From: an uncultured Candidatus Melainabacteria bacterium | GTDB lineage: Bacteria > Cyanobacteriota > Vampirovibrionia > Gastranaerophilales > Gastranaerophilaceae | Direction: 5' to 3' | NCBI GenBank assembly: GCA_947364235.1 | Contig: CANARY010000004.1 | Location: 1-64,000 of the forward strand | Length of the DNA: 64,000 nt | Shown: in pieces, positions 43,071-52,980 of the stretch | How positions within the stretch are numbered: the first letter of the stretch is position 1 | Layout of the letters: each line of letters opens with the position of its first letter | Notes under the pieces: generated by a model | The model's database searches: none | Told to the model about the DNA's origin: nothing | What the model saw: the letters and a program-made list of their open reading frames with translations, nothing else | Program-made: the position numbers and the translations under genes

Positions 43071-43124
43071 GTGAGATATGGTGTACAAAAATTTTATAGT
43101 ATAATTAAAAAAAGGAGAATAGTT

Positions 43125-44618
43125 ATTTTTTTAGAAGTATTAAAAAAAACTAAGATATACAAGCTTCTGGTAAAACAAGAAAATGAGTTAGAAGACCATG
43201 AAATCTCTGAGAATTTAAAAATTATTTTATCAGAATCAATTCCGATTCTTGCCCAAACAAGAAGTTATTTACCTGAATATACTTTGCATGACTATACACA
43301 TTCTATTTCAATTATCAATATTGCTGCTGATATTATTCCTGAACAAACTTTAAATAGTTTAAATAATATTGAGTTATCTTTAATAATATTTTCTGCGTTT
43401 TTACATGATATAGGAATGGCTTGTTCAGAAACTGAAAGAAACAAAATTATTATTACAGACGATTTTAAAAGATTTTTTAATTCTTATGAAGAAGACGAGA
43501 TTGATTTTATTTTTTCTGAATATATTAGAAAAAACCATGCAAAAAGATCTTATAATTTTATTATCAAAAATTACAAAAACAGAATTAAATATAAGAACAT
43601 TGATTATAGCGAGTTAGTTGCAAATTTATGTTTGGGACATTGTCTTGATATTTCTGATTTGAAAAATGAGGGAATGTTTTCTAAACAGGAGCTTATTGAG
43701 TCTTATGAATGCAATATTCATTATATCGCAATGATATTGAGACTTGCGGATTATTTAGATATTTTTCCAAACAGAGCTCCAATAGCTTTATATAAATTTG
43801 TATCACCTAAAAACCAAATTAGCATTATTGAGTGGCAAAAGCATATGAGCATTTCCGGTTGGAAATTTTCATCTAATAAAATAAGAATAGCGGCTAATTG
43901 TAAAAATATTGATTATGAACGAGCTATAAGAGAAACATTAAAAGGAATTAATGCTGAAAGAAAAAACGTTTATGATGCTGTAAAAGACTATAATTCTAAT
44001 TTATTGGGTAAATACAAATTTTTTATTAACGAAGATATAAGTTTTGATGATATCAAAAACGATGGTTCATATATATTTGACAATCTTGAATTTAAGATTG
44101 ATTACAAATCAATTTTAACACTATTAATGGGAGAAAAGTTATATAACTCTCCTGAAGTTGCATTAAGAGAACTTATTCAAAATTCAGTTGACGCAATAAA
44201 TTTCAGGAAAGGACTTCAAAAAGATAAATTTGAGGCTAAAATAGAAATAAATTTTGATGGTCAATCATTATCTATTTCAGATAATGGAATAGGAATGGAT
44301 GAATATATTTTCAAGAAATATTTTGTAAATGTCGGTAAAAGCTTTTATAAAAGTAAAGATGCGAAATCTTTAGTGTCTGATTATCAATCGATTAGCGAGT
44401 TTGGCATTGGCATACTATCCTGTTTTATGGTTGCAGATAGTATAGAAATAGAAAGTAAAAGGTTTAGTGAAGATACTAATAATCCTAATGAGCCACTATG
44501 TGTTGAAATACCTACTGCATTTGGATATATGATTAAGAAGAAATCCTACAAACAACAAGTTGGAACAAAGATAACTTTAAAATTAAAAGAAAATCATCCT
44601 TTTAAAAATATATTATAA
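43125..44618 (+). CDS. HD domain-GHKL ATPase protein, truncated
   Basis: About 497 residues. The N-terminal half is an HD-type domain ('LHDYTHSISII', 'FSAFLHDIGMA', 'RLADYLDIF'). The C-terminal half is an Hsp90-like GHKL ATPase ('ALRELIQNSVDAI', 'ISDNGIGMD', 'VGKSFYKS', 'EFGIGILSCFM'). The frame then stops, where an Hsp90-type protein would go on for several hundred residues, at a junction with phage DNA. No ATG, GTG or TTG stands in the right place. GGAG at 43114 points to an ATT codon at 43125, and a TATAAT at 43100 excludes the GTG at 43071. Full-length relatives may be defence or stress ATPases. The role of this copy is unknown. Confidence 0.65.
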   Translation: MFLEVLKKTKIYKLLVKQENELEDHEISENLKIILSESIPILAQTRSYLPEYTLHDYTHSISIINIAADIIPEQTLNSLNNIELSLIIFSAFLHDIGMACSETERNKIIITDDFKRFFNSYEEDEIDFIFSEYIRKNHAKRSYNFIIKNYKNRIKYKNIDYSELVANLCLGHCLDISDLKNEGMFSKQELIESYECNIHYIAMILRLADYLDIFPNRAPIALYKFVSPKNQISIIEWQKHMSISGWKFSSNKIRIAANCKNIDYERAIRETLKGINAERKNVYDAVKDYNSNLLGKYKFFINEDISFDDIKNDGSYIFDNLEFKIDYKSILTLLMGEKLYNSPEVALRELIQNSVDAINFRKGLQKDKFEAKIEINFDGQSLSISDNGIGMDEYIFKKYFVNVGKSFYKSKDAKSLVSDYQSISEFGIGILSCFMVADSIEIESKRFSEDTNNPNEPLCVEIPTAFGYMIKKKSYKQQVGTKITLKLKENHPFKNIL

Positions 44619-44851
44619 CAAATAGTGATAAAGTGCCTATTTTTAATTCACTAGTGAGCATTGATACATTGACTTACAAATTGGATAAAGCTGGTGATAT
44701 TAATTATTCGATAAAGGTTTCAGAATTTCCAGCCAAATTTCTATCATTTTTGGAGGTAGATCCAAAAATATGGAAATATGTAAAAAATAATACAGTAAAA
44801 TATAAAAATGAATTATTAAAAAAAAATGGATTAATTAAAGATGACGTTTGA
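44609..44851 (+). pseudogene. 3' fragment of an XkdP-like tail gene
   Basis: The frame reads 'YIITNSDKVPIFNSLVSIDT' then 'LTYKLDKAGDINYSIKVSEF', which fits the C-terminal part of XkdP-type tail proteins (a beta-strand pair ending in 'GDIxYxLxLxEY') followed by a short LysM-like end. The recognisable text begins at 44609, directly at the end of the ATPase frame, so the N-terminal part is lost. A GTG at 44633 might start a 72-residue product. It overlaps the first hub gene by 11 bases. Confidence 0.6.
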
Positions 44852-45692
44852 GATACATAAAATAGGTTTTGAAAATAATAAATTTATAGAACGAGATAAA
44901 ACAAACCCTGAACAAACAATAATAAAAAATGTTTTTAAAGTTAACTGGGAGGATGACGTAAAGAATTATCACATATCGTTTAATTTTACTACTAATGAAG
45001 AAATCGAACTTGGACAGGCAATAGAATTATATGAAAAAGAAGATGATGTAGTTATTTTCCGTGGATTTATAAGAAAATCAATCAGAAGTGCTCAAAAACA
45101 AATCAATTATGAAGGCTATGATATAGGTTATCTATTATCTAAACTGTCATATACATTTGATTTCAAGGGAACTTGTATATCTGATGCAATATCAAGGGTT
45201 TGCAGCGATTCTAACTTCCCGGGTTTAGTCAATATTAAAAAAGATGAAACGAGATTAACACGTATATACAGAAATAAAATTCTTAAAGATGTAATATACG
45301 ATATCCTTAATGGTAATCCTAAATTAAATAAATACACCGGACCTGTTAATAAAAATTATTTTATAGATTGTTCGACAGGTGTTTTAGAATTAAAAGAGTA
45401 CCAAATATGTAACGACCTATACGGAAAAGTTTCAAATTTATATGTAGTTAAAAGTTTGGATACAATTCAAAATGATTTTAAAATTACTTATTCAATAGAT
45501 ATAGAAGGTTTACCTAAAGAAGATGATACTTTAACTATTTTGGGAGATTATAAAGCAAGAAAAGGTGTAATTATTAAAATTGATAATAAAGAGCTCAGGT
45601 TTAATGACTATTATTTAATAGAAAGGTCTAAGCATCAAATTCAAGGCTCAGTTGAAAAGGTTCAAATATATATCAAGAAAGTTATTCTATAA
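44841..45692 (+). CDS. XkdQ-like tail hub protein, copy 1
   Basis: 283 residues of the XkdQ/YqbQ type: N-terminal 'NVFKVNWEDDVKNYHISFNF', 'GQAIELYEKEDDVVIFRGFI', 'GYDIGYLLSK', a middle 'IYRNKILKDVIYDIL', and the C-terminal 'DTIQNDFKITY' and 'DYKARKGVIIKI'. In PBSX-like tails it forms the central hub (gpD-like) below the tube. A second, clearly homologous copy follows at 46082. The 3' end overlaps the convergent small-protein gene by six bases. Confidence 0.78.
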   Translation: MTFEIHKIGFENNKFIERDKTNPEQTIIKNVFKVNWEDDVKNYHISFNFTTNEEIELGQAIELYEKEDDVVIFRGFIRKSIRSAQKQINYEGYDIGYLLSKLSYTFDFKGTCISDAISRVCSDSNFPGLVNIKKDETRLTRIYRNKILKDVIYDILNGNPKLNKYTGPVNKNYFIDCSTGVLELKEYQICNDLYGKVSNLYVVKSLDTIQNDFKITYSIDIEGLPKEDDTLTILGDYKARKGVIIKIDNKELRFNDYYLIERSKHQIQGSVEKVQIYIKKVIL

Positions 45693-45941
45693 CTCGTACC
45701 TCACAGACCTATTCCCTATGCCTGTAATTCTGCCATTGTTATCATAATGTATATCTTCATTTCCTATCTTCTCGATGCGACTGGAATCAAGCGAGTACCT
45801 CACAGACTTATTCCCTATGCCTGTAATTCTGCCATTGTTATCATAATGTATATCTTCATTTCCTATCTTCTCGATGCGATTACCAGCAAATGCCGGACAG
45901 ATAAAGAACAACATTAAAAATAGTATTAATATTTTTTTCAT
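45687..45941 (-). CDS. Small secreted repeat protein, copy 1
   Basis: 84 residues. A signal peptide (KILILFLMLFFICPAFA) is followed by two 33-residue repeats with the pattern 'RIEKIGNEDIHYDNNGRITG' then 'IGNKSVRY'. The 'YDNNGRI' text is YD-repeat-like. AGAGGTGA lies before the ATG. The gene is antisense to the phage operon, directly after the first hub gene. The two repeats differ by one base in 85, which shows a recent duplication. The function is unknown. Confidence 0.7.
   Translation of the reverse strand: MKKILILFLMLFFICPAFAGNRIEKIGNEDIHYDNNGRITGIGNKSVRYSLDSSRIEKIGNEDIHYDNNGRITGIGNRSVRYEL
45696..45879 (-). repeat. Two 85-bp direct repeats, period 99 bp
   Basis: 45696-45780 and 45795-45879 match at every base except one C/T. 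They encode the duplicated 33-residue unit of the small secreted protein. Such near identity points to a recent slippage or gene-conversion event. Confidence 0.92.
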
Positions 45942-46081
45942 ATTTCACCTCTTGGTTTGTAGAGTTACTTATTATTATAAACGAAATTAATATGTTTTTG
46001 TTCAAAATGGAATAGAATTGGTAAAAAGATGAAATAAATGAATATTGTAGAAGCCTATTAAAAAAGAATGGATGATTAAAA

Positions 46082-46942
46082 ATGACTTATGAACTGCATA
46101 ACATAATTTTTGAAAATAATAGATTTGTTGAAAGAGACAAAAATAAATCTGAACAAACAAAAATAGAAAATGTTTTTGAAGTTAACTGGAGTGATAATAT
46201 TAATAACAACTTTTTATCATTTGATTTTACTACCAATACAGATATTAAGCTTGGTAGTGCTGTAGAATTATATAATAAAGATGATGATGCGGTTGTTTTC
46301 CGAGGTATTATAACGCATTCAATTAGGACTCAAAAAGATAGAGTTCAGTATTATGGATATGATATAGGATATTTACTTAACAAATGCCGTGATACATTCG
46401 ATTTTAAATACGTTAAAATTACAGATGCTCTTAAAAAAATTTGTAATGATATAAATTTTCCTATCTCATCGAATCTTGTAAAGGAAGATACAGAGTTGAA
46501 ACGTATATATAGAAATAAGTGTGCTAAAGATGTAATAAGCGATATACTAAAAGGAGATCCTAAGTTAAATAATTATAGCGGTCCAGTTAATCAGAATTTA
46601 TTTATTGATTGTTCATCTGGCGAGCTGGAACTAAAAGAGTATACTAGAGTTGAGAATTTATATGGAAAGATATCAAATTTATACAGAGTTAATAGTATGG
46701 ATACGATACAAGATAAATTTAAGATTACTCATATTATAAGTCCAGAAGGTGTTAAAGAAGAACAAGATAAGTTAACAATATTTGGTGATTATAGAGCGCG
46801 AAAGGGGGTTATTATTCCTATTAATAATAAAGAACTAAATTTAAATGGTGATTATTTAATAGAACAATCAATACATATAATTCAAGGTGTAACAGAAAAA
46901 GTTGAAATATTTATTAGAGAACTAGGTCGATTTTCTAGTTAA
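46082..46942 (+). CDS. XkdQ-like tail hub protein, copy 2
   Basis: 286 residues, aligned along its whole length with the copy at 44841: 'NVFEVNWSDNINNNFLSFDF', 'GYDIGYLLNK', 'IYRNKCAKDVISDILKGDPK', 'DYRARKGVIIPI'. Roughly half the residues are the same by eye. No frame damage is seen, so it may be the functional hub. The next downstream gene on this strand is the DUF2577 gene. It is followed by its own antisense small-protein gene. Confidence 0.78.
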   Translation: MTYELHNIIFENNRFVERDKNKSEQTKIENVFEVNWSDNINNNFLSFDFTTNTDIKLGSAVELYNKDDDAVVFRGIITHSIRTQKDRVQYYGYDIGYLLNKCRDTFDFKYVKITDALKKICNDINFPISSNLVKEDTELKRIYRNKCAKDVISDILKGDPKLNNYSGPVNQNLFIDCSSGELELKEYTRVENLYGKISNLYRVNSMDTIQDKFKITHIISPEGVKEEQDKLTIFGDYRARKGVIIPINNKELNLNGDYLIEQSIHIIQGVTEKVEIFIRELGRFSS

Positions 46943-46977
46943 TTTATTTTAATAAGGGAATGGTTTATTTATGGCAT

Positions 46978-47232
46978 TTAATAATATTGTACTCTTCTAT
47001 TACCAATGTAAATTATTTTGCCCTTACTATTATAAATAACTGTTTCATTACCTATTGATTCAATGCGTTCCGGGTCTATAATACAATATTGTACTCTTCT
47101 ATTACCAATGTAAATTATTTTGCCACTACTATTATAAGTAACCGTTTCATTACCAATGGATTCAATGCGAACATTGGCAAATGCAGTGGGTAAAAATAAT
47201 AACATTACTAAAAGAGTTAAAAAAAATCTCAT
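46978..47232 (-). CDS. Small secreted repeat protein, copy 2
   Basis: 84 residues. Signal peptide 'RFFLTLLVMLLFLPTAFA', then two 34-residue repeats of 'RIESIGNETVTYNSSGKIIY' plus 'IGNRRVQY'. AGGAG stands before the ATG. It is homologous to the protein at 45687 and has the same position and orientation relative to its hub gene. The repeats are more diverged than in copy 1. It is probably periplasmic or surface located. No catalytic residues are evident. Confidence 0.7.
   Translation of the reverse strand: MRFFLTLLVMLLFLPTAFANVRIESIGNETVTYNSSGKIIYIGNRRVQYCIIDPERIESIGNETVIYNSKGKIIYIGNRRVQYY
46985..47190 (-). repeat. Two direct repeats, period 102 bp
   Basis: TATTGTACTCTTCTATTACC begins at 46985 and again at 47087; the following 80 or so bases match with several changes. 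This is the coding repeat of the second small secreted protein. Confidence 0.85.
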
Positions 47233-47264
47233 AAATCTCCTTTATTTATTCTTTTACTTATTAT

Positions 47265-47363
47265 AAACGAAATTTATATGTATAACATTACAATTACATT
47301 AAAAATTTTTCATATCTTACCTCGTTACTATAATAACGAATTTTTTATGTTTTTGTTCAAATA
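47265..47363 (-). pseudogene. Relic of a third small-protein cassette
   Basis: On the minus strand GAGGTAAGAT then ATGAAAAATTTTTAA mirrors the ribosome site and signal-peptide start of copy 1 (GAGGTGAAAT, ATGAAAAAAATATTA), but a stop follows at once. The flanking text 'AACGAATTTTTTATGTTTTT' with 'GTTCAAA' repeats the segment upstream of copy 1 (45967-46006). It looks like the remains of a third hub/small-protein unit. Confidence 0.5.
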
Positions 47364-47380
47364 ACAAAGAAAGTTGATGT

Positions 47381-47827
47381 ATGACCAATAAAAGTTTTAT
47401 TGAATTGTTAGCGGAAAATTTGAATATCCGCAATAATCCTGATGATTTAAAATCAAATATTATCGCAAAAGTTGTGCAGCTTGATCCGATTATTGTCCAG
47501 ATTTCAGATGGAAAAATTTTACTGAAAGAAGGTGATGAGTTAGAAATATCAGAATGGTTCAGGTTTCGGTGTGAGATTGATGCATCCGGAATTTTATCGG
47601 AAAACGTACAGTCAAACTGTGATTCTGCCCTAAGTATTACAGAAATTCATTCGTATACAGGCTCTGACTGTATGATGCCGAATGCAGTCAGTTATCTTGC
47701 TAATGCCATTTTAGGCGTTAGAGATGAGTTATTAAAACTCAAATGTGAGCTAAAACAAGACGATTTTGTAAATATTGCAAGTCTTGAAACAGATGGAAAG
47801 TATATATTATTAGATAAGGTTTTATAA
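47381..47827 (+). CDS. XkdR-like (DUF2577) tail protein
   Basis: 148 residues. 'IIAKVVQLDPIIVQISDGKI' followed by 'LLKEGDELEISEWFRFRCEI' is the OB-like DUF2577 pattern found after the hub gene in PBSX-type tails. It belongs to the baseplate centre. A long spacer region with cassette relics separates it from the hub, whereas these genes normally touch. Confidence 0.72.
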   Translation: MTNKSFIELLAENLNIRNNPDDLKSNIIAKVVQLDPIIVQISDGKILLKEGDELEISEWFRFRCEIDASGILSENVQSNCDSALSITEIHSYTGSDCMMPNAVSYLANAILGVRDELLKLKCELKQDDFVNIASLETDGKYILLDKVL

Positions 47828-47828
47828 G

Positions 47829-48257
47829 ATGGAAAATTTTAGCATCGGCTATGAGCCGGAAATTAATTTTGAAGATACAACAATAAATATTATCCCTAAC
47901 TGCAAGTTTGTACTAAAAAATGGTTCTCCAAATCTTATTAACAAAATTATGGCTGTCAGGCAATGGGTAACAAAATTTTGTATAACAGAAAAAAACGTTA
48001 ATGAGATATATCAAGGAACAGGTTTTGGCACCAGATTTAAGCAGCTCTACGGAAGGAAAAGAATAGGCTACGGATTTGAAGAAGCAGAAATTGAACGTGA
48101 TTTTAGAGAAGGGCTTGCTTTATGTCCGGCTATTAGTGAAGTTGTTTCGTTTGAAATAAAGAAAAACGGAAGAATATTAAGTATTAAATTAAAAATCGAA
48201 CTCTCTAGCGGAGATTTATTGGATATTGATATAGAAAAAGCGTACACAATCAAATAA
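47829..48257 (+). CDS. XkdS-like (DUF2634) baseplate wedge protein
   Basis: 142 residues. 'IMAVRQWVTKFCITEKN' with 'EIYQGTGFGTRF', then 'EAEIERDFREGLALCPAISEV' matches the gpW/DUF2634 layout. It normally links the hub to the baseplate J arms. It starts one base after the DUF2577 stop. Confidence 0.78.
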   Translation: MENFSIGYEPEINFEDTTINIIPNCKFVLKNGSPNLINKIMAVRQWVTKFCITEKNVNEIYQGTGFGTRFKQLYGRKRIGYGFEEAEIERDFREGLALCPAISEVVSFEIKKNGRILSIKLKIELSSGDLLDIDIEKAYTIK

Positions 48258-48268
48258 GAAAGGATTTT

Positions 48269-49402
48269 ATGGCTTTAATTGATAATATTGAGATAACAGC
48301 AGAACAAATTACAAAAGAAGGTTTAGATGCTCTTGACGACAAGTATCAAAAAACAGTTGGATTTTTTGCGTGGGATTATTTTTCGGCAATAGGAAAAGTG
48401 CTTTATAAGCTTTGGCAGAAAATAGGTTATATTGCATCTTGTTTAGCCGATTTAAGAAATATGGATTACGAAGACTTAGTTCAATTTGTATTTCAAACAC
48501 GCGGAATGAATGCGAAGAAGGCAGCAAGTTCTTCCGGTTATCTAACTGTTCTGAACGGAAACGGGACTATAAACATCGGTAATGTTTTTGAAACTCCCGA
48601 CGGGCTTCAATTTCAGGCGATTGAGAAAAAGGATGTTTTAGCAGGAGATAAATTCAAAGCCTCATGTCTTACAAAAGGCATAATAGGTAATGTTCCTAAA
48701 GGAGCAATAAGTGTAATGCCTTCAACGATTCAAGGAATAGTCAGTGTAATTAATGAAGAAGCTTTCACCGGCGGATATGAAGATGAAACGAAAGAAGATT
48801 TATTGCAGCGTTATTATGATGATATTCAAAAACCTGTAACCAGCGGAAATATTTATCATTATATTAAATGGGCTTTGGAAGTTACAGGTGTAGGCAATGC
48901 AAAAGTCAAACCGTTATGGAATGGTGATAATACTGTAAAAGTAGTTATTCTTGATTCGAATAAAAATATTCCTTCAAAAGAGCTGGTTAATAAAGTACAA
49001 GATTACATAGACCCAGGCTCAAAAGGTTTAGGTCTGGGACAGGCGCCCTTAGGGGCTTATTGCACTGTATGCGCTGCAGAACCAAAATATTTGAATGTAA
49101 AAAATAAAATCAAGTTAAAATCAGGTATAGAGCGAAGTGAAGTAGTTAATAATATTCGCAGGGATATAGAAGAGTACTTAAAAGTTGCTGCTTTTGATGA
49201 AGCTGTTAAATATATCAGTTATTCCAAAATTGGTTCATTAATTATGAATGCAGATGGTGTTTATGATTATGATAGCAAAGATTTTTTGCTAAATGGTGAT
49301 ACTGACAATATTGTGCTGGCTGATAATGATGAAATAACAGAAGTTGCGGTATTAAATGAATTAATAATTGAGGTAGAAAATGATATTGAAGCTGTTACAT
49401 AA
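48269..49402 (+). CDS. Baseplate J-like protein (XkdT)
   Basis: 377 residues. The N-terminal helical part is followed by 'GYLTVLNGNGTINIGNVFET' and 'GVPKGAIS'-type strands ('GNVPKGAISVMP'), then 'GGYEDETKEDLLQRYYDDIQ' and 'ALEVTGVGNAKVKPLWNGDN', the standard baseplate J text. It forms the baseplate wedge arms. AAAGGA precedes the ATG. The end overlaps the next gene by 23 bases. Confidence 0.92.
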   Translation: MALIDNIEITAEQITKEGLDALDDKYQKTVGFFAWDYFSAIGKVLYKLWQKIGYIASCLADLRNMDYEDLVQFVFQTRGMNAKKAASSSGYLTVLNGNGTINIGNVFETPDGLQFQAIEKKDVLAGDKFKASCLTKGIIGNVPKGAISVMPSTIQGIVSVINEEAFTGGYEDETKEDLLQRYYDDIQKPVTSGNIYHYIKWALEVTGVGNAKVKPLWNGDNTVKVVILDSNKNIPSKELVNKVQDYIDPGSKGLGLGQAPLGAYCTVCAAEPKYLNVKNKIKLKSGIERSEVVNNIRRDIEEYLKVAAFDEAVKYISYSKIGSLIMNADGVYDYDSKDFLLNGDTDNIVLADNDEITEVAVLNELIIEVENDIEAVT

Positions 49403-49910
49403 AATTTATCGTAATGATGATTTTATTAAGAATTTTGTTAATGCAGCAAGTCTTGTATTTAATTCTTGCGAAGAAATGATTATAAGAATAGGAAATCTTT
49501 TTTATTTTGACAAACTGGATTCAAAAAGCTGTGAATGGTGGGAAAAGTTTTTGGAAATCACTGAAATAAGCTCAAGCATAGAAAGCCGTCGTGCACGTAT
49601 AAGGGCAAAATGGCTCAGCAGTGCTCATAATGATATTTTACTAATACAAGCGATTTGTGACAGCTGGAAAAATGGTGAAGTTGAAGCTGATTTTATTGAT
49701 GGAAAAATCAGCCTTAAATTTATAGGCGGGTATGGTATACCAAAAGATTTAGAAGGTTTGGTAAATGCAGTTAATGAAATAAAGCCTGCTCATTTGCCGC
49801 TGCTGCTTATTTATAAGTATCTATTAATTGAAAATATCCATTTGACCAAAACTATTGAAGAAATGGAGCAGGTACAGTTATTTTGTTTTGCGGGCGGTGT
49901 AGTCAGATAA
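49380..49910 (+). CDS. XkdU-like (DUF2313/YmfQ) tail protein
   Basis: 176 residues. 'YFDKLDSKSCEWWEKFLEI' with 'SSIESRRARIRAKWLSS', and 'KPAHLPLLLIYKYLLIE' near the end, give the family pattern. It sits between baseplate J and the tail fibre, as expected of the protein that joins fibre to baseplate. Confidence 0.85.
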   Translation: MILKLLHKIYRNDDFIKNFVNAASLVFNSCEEMIIRIGNLFYFDKLDSKSCEWWEKFLEITEISSSIESRRARIRAKWLSSAHNDILLIQAICDSWKNGEVEADFIDGKISLKFIGGYGIPKDLEGLVNAVNEIKPAHLPLLLIYKYLLIENIHLTKTIEEMEQVQLFCFAGGVVR

Positions 49911-49924
49911 AAGAAAGGAATGTT

Positions 49925-51745
49925 ATGTCAACAAGTACAACTTATTTAGATTTATTTAAATATGATTCAGAAAAAGATGCTAAGCAGACTTTTAATATTA
50001 ATACTGCTTTAAACGAAAATTGGGATAAGATAGACAATTTTGCCGCTCAAAAAGGAAATGTCAACGGTTATGCTTCTCTTGACGGGAACGGTAAAGTGCC
50101 TTTAGCACAGCTGCCGGAGCTGAAAAACGGCATCTCCCTACCTCTATTCACTCCCATAATAATGGACCATGCTTTAAGCTTTGAATCCAGCAAAGGTTAT
50201 GCACTTCAAGGCACATACGTCTATAAAGAAGCCGTCGCGGGTTCACGTTACGGTTATCCGGATTTTTATCAAAAATGTGTTGATGAAAAAAACAATGCAG
50301 TTCAAGAACAAATGACAATAGGCAGTACAACAATTACTGTTTACAAAAATGCTAACGGTCATATTTTTTACGATATCTCCGATAAATCCACTGTTGACAA
50401 TTTATTTAACACAACCGGAGTTTCAGATATGTACGGTGTGGACGAAGAAAACGAGCGTATATTTTTACCGCGCAGTAATTGGTTTATGCAGCTTACAACC
50501 GACATAAGCAAAGTGAATGATTACAACAAACCAGGACTGCCGAATCATACACACCCTATACAACCTCCTGCAAGAAACTCAGCCGGCAGCATTCCATTTG
50601 GCGGCGGCGGGGGTAATATGGGATTTACTAACGAAACGGAGGAAGTTGAAAATAGTGATATTTATGGTGCTTCAGATACAGTACAGCCTCCATCATCAAA
50701 TAAACTTCTTTACTATGTAGTCGGGAATACAGTTCAAGAAGAGGCAATTACAAACGTAATAGATATTACTACAAGCGAAAATGATACCATTCCGCTGGGA
50801 TTTTCAACATATCAGAACGGCGCACAGCCTTCAGCAGCCTGGTTGAAATCGCAAGGACAATGGAATAGCGGGAATATATATCAAACATTCTATAACTATG
50901 CAGTAAATAAGCTAGGTGATACTTTTGCCAGTGGTTATATCAAGTCATCAACAACTGCGTATAATGACTATGACCTAGTTATTAATGAAGAGAATATGAC
51001 GTTTAGGCTTCCATTGTTGAATGGTAGTGAAAGAATATTAAGTAATAGTTATGAAAATATAACACTATTGGAATCCGGTTCGCAATATCAAGTAGAAAAA
51101 AGTGGAAGAGTTGAATTAAATATAACAGCCGGTGCCACGAACGAATATGCAAATTTAATTAATTGGACTAAGCAAAGTTTAACAGATGAAGCACAATCTA
51201 CTTATAATGGAGCACGTCTAACAGTTTCAATAGAAGTTGCCCAAAATGATACTTTTGTAGCTTGGTATGATACAACAGGGCCATTAGTGTATTTTAGACT
51301 ATATCCTTTTAAGGGCAATGGTACACTTTATTTTAAAGTTTCCAATGCAGTCCAGAACCTTGAGCTGCTGGATGCTGCAGAAGTAACCGAAGCTCTTGCT
51401 GATAAGCTCGATATTTCACAGGTTAAAGCTTACATCACAGAAAGTTATCTTAATGGATTAAGCGGATACAACTTGTATTCTAACGGATTTTGCGAGCAGT
51501 GGGGGAGCTTCACGACAACTGCAGCCAGCTACGATAATATTACATTATTAAAACCATTTATTAATACAAATTATTTTGCTACATATTTATTTTGTAATCA
51601 AAGCAGCACTTCTGACGATTTGTATGTAAGTTACCTGGGTATACCTAGAAAATCTCCAAGTAATTTTTCAATAGTACATTCTACCCGAGACCAGACTATT
51701 TCCGGTAAAACTATGCAATGGTATGCCAGAGGATATATTAATTAG
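49925..51745 (+). CDS. Tail fibre / collar-type protein
   Basis: 606 residues from ATG 49925 with AAAGGAA upstream. The N-terminus 'TTYLDLFKYDSEKDAKQTFN' with 'NENWDKIDNFA' is the phage-fibre attachment type. Two receptor-type modules follow: about 75-200 and 280-390, each with 'FLPR' or 'FRLPLLNGSER' collar-like text and 'GLPNHTHP' as in tail-collar domains. The end is a beta-rich head. It would bind a host surface. Confidence 0.85.
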   Translation: MSTSTTYLDLFKYDSEKDAKQTFNINTALNENWDKIDNFAAQKGNVNGYASLDGNGKVPLAQLPELKNGISLPLFTPIIMDHALSFESSKGYALQGTYVYKEAVAGSRYGYPDFYQKCVDEKNNAVQEQMTIGSTTITVYKNANGHIFYDISDKSTVDNLFNTTGVSDMYGVDEENERIFLPRSNWFMQLTTDISKVNDYNKPGLPNHTHPIQPPARNSAGSIPFGGGGGNMGFTNETEEVENSDIYGASDTVQPPSSNKLLYYVVGNTVQEEAITNVIDITTSENDTIPLGFSTYQNGAQPSAAWLKSQGQWNSGNIYQTFYNYAVNKLGDTFASGYIKSSTTAYNDYDLVINEENMTFRLPLLNGSERILSNSYENITLLESGSQYQVEKSGRVELNITAGATNEYANLINWTKQSLTDEAQSTYNGARLTVSIEVAQNDTFVAWYDTTGPLVYFRLYPFKGNGTLYFKVSNAVQNLELLDAAEVTEALADKLDISQVKAYITESYLNGLSGYNLYSNGFCEQWGSFTTTAASYDNITLLKPFINTNYFATYLFCNQSSTSDDLYVSYLGIPRKSPSNFSIVHSTRDQTISGKTMQWYARGYIN

Positions 51746-51759
51746 AAAGGATAAAAGAA

Positions 51760-52206
51760 ATGGAAACTAAAGCTATATTAAATAAACCATATACAGAAGA
51801 AGAGAGATTAAACTTCATTGTAGAGAACAACCACAAGCTTGGTTACACAATTCAGGAAACAGAAGATGGCTTACAAGCTCTTGGATTTACAGAAGAAGAG
51901 CTTCAGGCTCAGGAGTGTGAACATTTAAATATGCTTTCTCTCACAGCTGCAGATGTTGAAAGAGCTATTTACAAAGCTAAAGGCATGGATTTTGAGGATA
52001 TCTTAAAGCTTGTAAAAGATAATCCGGATATTGATGTAAAGGCGTTGAAAATTGAGCTTAAAGCAAACAATTTCTTCCGCGGCAATCCTTGGATTAATGA
52101 GGTCGGGGTGCTATTGGGATTCACTCCTGAGATGCTGGATGAGTTTTTTGAGACGAAAGATTATACGAAGCTTATAAAGGATAATGAGGCAGTAGATGAG
52201 GCTTAA
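51760..52206 (+). CDS. Tail-region protein, unknown
   Basis: 148 residues, helical and acidic. 'YTEEERLNFIVENNHKLGYT' and 'EETEDGLQALGFTEEELQ'-like text ('IQETEDGLQALGF') resembles short proteins downstream of phage fibres that may act as fibre chaperones. It overlaps the DUF1353 gene by 11 bases. Confidence 0.6.
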   Translation: METKAILNKPYTEEERLNFIVENNHKLGYTIQETEDGLQALGFTEEELQAQECEHLNMLSLTAADVERAIYKAKGMDFEDILKLVKDNPDIDVKALKIELKANNFFRGNPWINEVGVLLGFTPEMLDEFFETKDYTKLIKDNEAVDEA

Positions 52207-52705
52207 GAATATACATCCGCTTTATATAGAAGGCAGAAAAGGGGTAACAATTAAATTTTACCCCTCTTTACCCGAAGAATGTCTTGCTGATAAATCTTTG
52301 GTTGGGTTAACGGGAGAAGAGCTTGAAAAAGCTTTAAAAAAACCGTTTTATGTAAGATGTCCGTTTTCAGTCCAGGTATTGTATAAAAATAATTTATACA
52401 ATTGGATAATACCTAAAGCTTATGATTGGAATGGTGCGAATGTACCTCCTTTTTGCTGGTTAATTATCGGTCAGCAGAAAGAACCGCGTTTTAAGCTGGC
52501 AAGCTGTGTGCACGATTATATGTGCGAACATCACGAGGTTATAGGAAATGACAGGTATTTGTCTACTCTTGTATTTGAAACGTTATGTGAATATTTTGGG
52601 CGGTTTAATGCGGTTAAAAGATGGGCTATGTTTCATAGTGTTGATAACTATCAGAAGATTTGCGGAAGAGACTTGAATAAAGAGCGCTGGCAGCACAAAA
52701 AATGA
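52196..52705 (+). CDS. DUF1353 phage protein
   Basis: 169 residues. The DUF1353 core is clear: 'WIIPKAYDWNGANVPPFCW', 'ASCVHDYMCEHH' and 'GRFNAVKRWAMFHSV'. The family is common near phage lysis or tail genes; its function is unknown. The conserved His-Asp pair could bind a metal. Confidence 0.82.
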   Translation: MRLKNIHPLYIEGRKGVTIKFYPSLPEECLADKSLVGLTGEELEKALKKPFYVRCPFSVQVLYKNNLYNWIIPKAYDWNGANVPPFCWLIIGQQKEPRFKLASCVHDYMCEHHEVIGNDRYLSTLVFETLCEYFGRFNAVKRWAMFHSVDNYQKICGRDLNKERWQHKK

Positions 52706-52980
52706 GTTTAGAGTTAGTTATAGCAGGACTTGCACTATTTATTACAGTTATAATTAATATTGTTGCAGTATCCTTTTTTGCAGGTATTTTGAAATCGAAT
52801 CAGGACCATCAAAAAGAAATGCTTCAATTATTGAAAGAAGATTTTCAAAGTCATTTTACCCGATTGGAACAAAAACAAGATAAGCATAATAATTTAATTG
52901 AAAGAATGGCATCAGCAGAAAACAGTATTAAATCTGCGCATCACAGAATTGATGATATAAAAGGAATCGTAAAATTTTAA
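52702..52980 (+). CDS. XhlA-like membrane protein
   Basis: 92 residues. One N-terminal membrane helix (LVIAGLALFITVIINIVAVS) is followed by a coiled coil with 'KHNNLIERMASAENSIKSAH'. This is the layout of haemolysin XhlA, which works with a holin in PBSX lysis. No holin XhlB or endolysin follows. It overlaps DUF1353 by four bases. Confidence 0.72.
   Translation: MSLELVIAGLALFITVIINIVAVSFFAGILKSNQDHQKEMLQLLKEDFQSHFTRLEQKQDKHNNLIERMASAENSIKSAHHRIDDIKGIVKF

Follow-up and report, generated by a model that had tools for sequence, protein, structure and literature searches.

Why should genes for small secreted-type proteins stand antisense at the end of a phage tail-hub gene, and why should they stay there when the prophage around them decays? 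This question is raised by a prophage remnant in a 64,000-nucleotide stretch of DNA from an uncultured Candidatus Melainabacteria bacterium of the Gastranaerophilaceae (assembly GCA_947364235.1, contig CANARY010000004.1, positions 1 to 64,000; hereafter the window). An earlier note on this DNA had pointed to two tail-hub genes, each followed by a convergent gene for a small repeat protein, and had proposed that hub and small protein belong together, for example as a moron-like immunity or exclusion factor. Our analysis of the locus and its relatives identifies something new at the hub end, namely a position-specific, hub-clade-linked antisense slot that is held by unrelated secreted families and survives in dead prophages.

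Two tandem units of hub and antisense small gene

Both hub genes of the window, hub1 (44841..45692, plus strand; 283 aa) and hub2 (46082..46942, plus strand; 286 aa), are intact open reading frames (ORFs) for XkdQ/YqbQ-like tail hubs, matching Pfam YQBQ (E 1.4e-17 and 5.4e-19, respectively) and phrog_400 'tail protein' (E 1e-18 for hub1). Their assignment follows from profile scores above the Pfam cut-off and from gene order, the hub position lying between a gp53/XkdP-like gene and the gene for DUF2577. On the minus strand, small1 (45687..45941), whose stop overlaps the hub1 stop, and small2 (46978..47232) are intact ORFs, each for an 84-aa IG-repeat protein with a signal-peptide-like start; for small1, a simple rule predicts cleavage near residue 19-20. 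Both convergent pairs are thus intact where the earlier note had placed them.

The two units of hub plus small gene are spaced by 1241 nt, share 71-74% DNA identity and each start 22 nt before the hub ATG. Hub2 is a tandem duplicate of hub1 (60% identity; 49% between small1 and small2), and the two are sisters in a hub tree with 100/100 support, for which reason we rejected the acquisition of hub2 from another phage. The ratio of nonsynonymous to synonymous substitution rates (ω) between the hubs is 0.22; the second copy is therefore not decaying, whereas decay of that copy, with no hub duplication in any relative, is what the earlier note had named as speaking against its proposal. The 33/34-residue repeat described in that note, two to each small protein, is present, although each copy really consists of two units of ~17 residues. 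In the DNA, an 85-nt internal repeat occurs twice per small gene, with 99% identity between copies in small1 and 93% in small2. The relic of a third unit proved to be the start of a third small gene on the minus strand (47299..47361), comprising a promoter-like region that reaches 47361, a ribosome-binding site and ATGAAAAATTTTTAA with the start codon (47299-47313). Small1 and small2 align with this relic at their 5' ends, and it contains no hub sequence.

The hub-DUF2577 junction in related prophages

With DUF2577, whose gene lies immediately right of the slot, as bait, we searched 383 genomes of the family, GTDB contigs and IMG/VR, and annotated the junction at each locus. Where the small gene is missing, the hub-DUF2577 gap is -27 to +30 nt in most loci and 92 nt in two viral contigs, whereas gaps with a small gene measure 260-484 nt and hold an antisense secreted-type gene whose stop overlaps or almost touches the hub stop. 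The slot, defined from the hub stop to the DUF2577 start, is occupied by two unrelated families, the IG repeats and a family that we call APNY after its mature N-terminus. Other genera and viral contigs from metagenomes show the pairing as well; it is not peculiar to one genome, and the junction carries antisense secreted-type genes in related prophages too.

An APNY gene lies beside the hub in genomes G224, G014, G293, G309, G443, G140 (twice) and G349 and in viral contigs L070, L074 and L076, of which G224, L074 and L076 represent seemingly intact phage regions. Strong APNY matches adjoin the hub end in almost every case. In G226, which belongs to another genus, the hub is flanked by three IG-repeat genes, and in L067 an IG-type gene stands directly upstream of the hub. 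L070 contains three copies of the hub, or of its C-terminal piece, with an APNY gene; the third lies inside gpJ, where the hub 3' end and the antisense APNY gene are fused into the reading frame after about eight codons (L070:6019-6907).

Further arrangements were seen at these late operons. One APNY gene of G226 stands antisense right after terL (L133:1682-2008); since this contig, like hub contig L040, breaks off in the tape measure gene, the two probably represent one prophage. Other late-operon junctions of related prophages are occupied by antisense genes that by eye look HigBA-like or HicB-like (L038:4249-4967, L042:15590-16175 and L040:3695-4072). Two contigs from different samples have an unusual gene order in which a single frame encodes both hub and DUF2577 and a prohead protease gene comes directly after it (L067:5068-6435 and L069:733-2100).

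Hub and small gene are inherited and exchanged together

On a tree of 29 hubs, the presence of the small gene requires only 2 changes, compared with a shuffled mean of 9.8 (0 of 500 shuffles as low). Between G443 and G140, a 426-nt block spanning the hub end, the small gene and the promoter region is 97.7% identical, and the flanking DNA does not align. That hub and small gene belong together is thus borne out by their recurrence in other genera and viral contigs, their duplication as a unit (in the window and in L070) and their agreement with the hub phylogeny. We also considered the small genes as chance ORFs antisense to a repeat and rejected this on account of their recurrence, predicted signal peptides and ω.

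Retention of the small gene in decayed prophages

A hub profile (A9), which is blind to the small gene, was searched in the 383 genomes, and we excluded, on visual inspection, divergent or doubtful matches in G337, G444 and G339. Twelve truncated hubs were found (G293, G309, G367, G443, G324, G363, G349, G140 at two places, G355, G204 and G272), as pieces of 46 to ~220 residues, and several of these loci are flanked on both sides by ordinary chromosomal genes. All 12 keep the C-terminal end, on the side of the small gene, and N-terminal-only remnants number 0 of 12 (two-sided binomial p 0.0005; 0.001 with one shared locus counted once, G363 and G324 having a locus in common). An intact small ORF accompanies 10 of the 12, the exceptions being G355, where it has decayed, and G204, which has none. 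This ORF is intact despite five stops in the hub piece of G363 and three in that of G272, and among the small genes of the remnants G363, G309 and G324, ω is 0.21-0.27.

Sequence, predicted structure and distribution of the small proteins

All 27 small proteins begin with a signal-peptide-like stretch, many members contain no cysteine, and mature APNY proteins are mostly 67-86 aa long. AlphaFold2 models predict a helix-hairpin-helix for APNY (pLDDT 80) and an all-beta structure of six short strands for small1 (pLDDT 76). A fold search of the PDB gave no confident match for APNY or the IG protein and no match to Spackle; the best Foldseek neighbours of the IG protein were Rhs-type and teneurin shells, at weak E values of 0.14-0.3. 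Pfam, NCBIfam, PHROGs and PADLOC returned no convincing match for the small proteins of the window or for APNY, single-protein searches of IMG/VR returned no relatives, and INPHARED phages yielded zero small-protein relatives and two hub matches, both weak. A viral protein, A0A8S5TL48, matches APNY (E 3e-6, 40% identity), and APNY is confined to this one bacterial family in a class-wide sample. Chromosomal genes for secreted-type IG-repeat proteins of up to seven units, in many cases located between nusB and ftsY, were seen in L010, L013, L014 and the window's own genome (L003, G000:C6:72665-72853), and chromosomal IG proteins touch Pfam MORN_2 in a weak match.

A promoter-like motif upstream of the small genes

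The motif TGAAC-N19..21-TATAAT lies at most 110 nt from the start codon in 13 of the 27 small genes, with 0.06 expected from shuffles, and is found in both families. Small1 carries it as TGAACAAAAACATATTAATTTCGTTTATAAT (45974..46004, minus strand); small2 has a -10-like TATAAT (47260..47265, minus strand) and no TGAAC element. In G226, an IG gene and an APNY gene have nearly identical predicted signal peptides. A stricter form with TTATAAT occurs 5 times in the window's genome versus 13 for the reversed control, which makes a housekeeping host promoter unlikely, though one of the five matches precedes a TolC-like gene. A standard promoter-consensus scan of the window found no excess of sites, and a simple scan found no terminator-like site in 44600-47500. 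For the latter reason, 'moron' is used loosely here, for independently transcribed cargo.

The prophage remnant and its surroundings

The window element is a prophage remnant with its left side cut off. At the left edge of the surviving tail operon lies the 3' remnant of a gp53/XkdP-like gene, a 72-aa ORF (44633..44851, plus strand) that shares 42-47% identity with the C-terminal portion of proteins of 170-175 aa from L039, L040 and L041. It abuts a gene with HD-CE and HATPase (HSP90-like) domains (43071-44618), a type known from conflict systems, whose HSP90-type domain ends at position 170 of 604 and which apparently lost its 3' end where the truncated prophage begins. As the gp53/XkdP-like gene has no 5' part and abuts this cut gene, the surviving prophage spans from there to ~52980. 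The right part of the operon (47381..52980, plus strand), assigned from Pfam matches and from related prophages with identical gene order, encodes DUF2577, a gp25-like sheath initiator, baseplate J, a Gp48-like protein, a tail fibre and three small ORFs. No att-like repeat joining both ends of the element was found. The source genome (1.93 Mb in 12 contigs) contains two more distant Baseplate_J genes (G000:C1:357104-357868 and G000:C7:88652-89401), and other contractile-tail elements are therefore present.

Discussion

What keeps these genes at the hub end? In our judgement, the chances are about even, or slightly better, that they are morons, expressed from the prophage for periplasmic superinfection exclusion, coupled to the hub and preserved in the host genome once the prophage has decayed. 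They would be transcribed from their own promoters while the prophage late genes are off, and each would give rise to a small protein exported to the periplasm, which would bind an incoming contractile tail at the part that reaches this compartment, its hub or tip complex, so that DNA delivery would fail and the lysogen would be protected from related phages. On contraction of such a tail, its tip complex enters the periplasm and so comes within reach of exported proteins, as is established for T4 (PMC7677548). What we infer from the sequences is that the genes are expressed in the lysogen, that their products reside in the periplasm, that exclusion is the function under selection and that the hub/tip complex is the target. 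Predicted export, antisense orientation, the promoter-like motif, linkage to the hub, exchangeability and retention by the host suit a prophage gene expressed for the lysogen's benefit; these features, the periplasmic tip complex and the precedents of Spackle, Ltp and Glo together lead us to favour exclusion aimed at the hub/tip complex. Possible, but doubtful, is the further proposal that every hub is matched to its antisense small gene in a cognate pair resembling toxin and immunity, in which each small protein specifically neutralises the neighbouring hub, families are swapped as hubs diversify, units are stacked in tandem and the gene is kept as stand-alone anti-phage immunity after the prophage dies.

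These precedents are likened to the small proteins by role, with no relatedness shown. T4 Spackle (Sp) has ~97 aa with a cleaved export signal and acts in the periplasm on the incoming tail hub/spike complex, and its mature form, at 75 aa, is similar in size to mature APNY proteins (PMC7677548). It is, however, made from an early gene in a lytic phage, and as an all-helical bundle it binds and inhibits the gp5 lysozyme domain (PMC7677548), whereas the small genes here lie in temperate prophages, antisense and beside an XkdQ-type hub. The all-helical fold, disulfide and gp5 lysozyme binding of the Spackle family are not seen in proteins predicted to be helix-hairpin-helix or all-beta and often without cysteine. 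Ltp of Streptococcus phage TP-J34 is prophage-expressed and exported, and it excludes phages through a repeat domain, with the tape measure protein, a tail component, as its target (PMC3952083); it differs as a lipoprotein of a Gram-positive host, encoded in the lysogeny module rather than within the tail operon. The temperate Vibrio cholerae phage K139 encodes Glo, an exclusion protein that is soluble and periplasmic, and a position beside the hub is not part of its description where it is cited (PMC3952083; PMC4870250). Since exclusion proteins that work in the periplasm or at the cell surface against parts of the tail are thus known (Spackle, PMC7677548; Ltp and Glo, PMC3952083), the remark in the earlier note that it knew of no described system of this kind is too strong. 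The IG repeats, predicted as short beta hairpins, resemble Rhs/YD and MORN-like repeats, all in weak matches, but the IG proteins here contain no more than two to four repeats and lack both a shell and a toxin.

HK97 gp15 (cited in PMC11436027) is reportedly a moron, an independently transcribed accessory gene that lies among the structural genes of a temperate phage and serves superinfection exclusion. The slot described here differs in being antisense, hub-specific, held by unrelated secreted families and duplicated or moved with hub sequence. As in a moron, the small gene is an extra gene between late genes that are adjacent in relatives, and the promoter-like motif suggests a promoter of its own; a terminator of its own was not found.

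Several observations weigh against exclusion as the function. Some genes of the IG-repeat family are chromosomal and stand apart from any hub (e.g., those adjoining nusB and ftsY), and the basic function of the family may therefore be something else. For this reason the family is not hub-specific, and on this point the proposal of the earlier note is not supported as written, although moron-like cargo of the exclusion type fits best; small proteins without a hub, which that note had held to count against it, exist in the IG family but not in APNY, whose strong matches nearly all lie beside a hub end. The hub family here has no lysozyme domain of the kind that Spackle binds. Among full-length hubs in the family, 5 have a small gene and 6 do not, so the small gene is not essential, and although it is more frequent in remnants than beside full-length hubs, this difference does not reach significance (p 0.09). 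The related loci are partly dependent on one another, and the synonymous divergence (dS) is high in some pairs, near saturation.

The rival that we take most seriously, while considering it rather unlikely, is another form of lysogenic conversion, in which the small secreted proteins serve the host envelope or the gut surface without exclusion and the hub end merely tolerates antisense cargo. It is consistent with the chromosomal IG-repeat relatives (e.g., between nusB and ftsY), with the APNY gene that follows terL rather than a hub (L133) and with the HigBA-like and HicB-like antisense cargo at other late-operon junctions, but it accounts poorly for the strong preference of the small genes for the hub end, their association with hub clades and their exchange and duplication along with hub sequence. 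That same exchange, as in the 426-nt block, would be expected if the hub 3' end and the small gene were a selfish, recombination-driven cassette spread by hub-end homology, whose retention would say nothing of host benefit; the three copies in L070, one of them within gpJ, and the many short remnants at different chromosomal places also agree with this. We nevertheless judge such a cassette improbable, as no recombinase or terminal repeats belong to it, the hub pieces vary in length in a way that resembles erosion, and the small protein is under purifying selection.

Two further explanations have still less in their favour. Every hub-adjacent small gene is antisense, and its stop overlaps or nearly meets the hub stop, so that read-through would cover the hub; with no terminator-like site found in 44600-47500, the transcript rather than the protein might matter, silencing the hub gene in the lysogen. 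This is very unlikely given that the proteins keep predicted signal peptides with ω of 0.2-0.3, and that the small genes persist where the hub is dead or almost lost. Least probable of all is that the small protein belongs to the virion or helps the hub to assemble: the tight link to hub clades would suit it, but a signal peptide would carry the protein away from cytoplasmic assembly, the antisense gene has its own promoter-like motif, and it survives where no other phage gene is left.

That the small genes usually outlast the remainder of the prophage suggests that they are a periplasmic shield, supplied by the prophage, which guards the host against related phages. If periplasmic exclusion is their function, they would define a class of exclusion genes recognisable from position alone, as an antisense secreted gene at the hub 3' end, and would link phage entry machinery to a periplasmic inhibitor. 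Fragments of dead prophages would then be kept as anti-phage immunity in hard-to-culture gut bacteria, a possible answer to why decayed prophages retain one particular half-kilobase.

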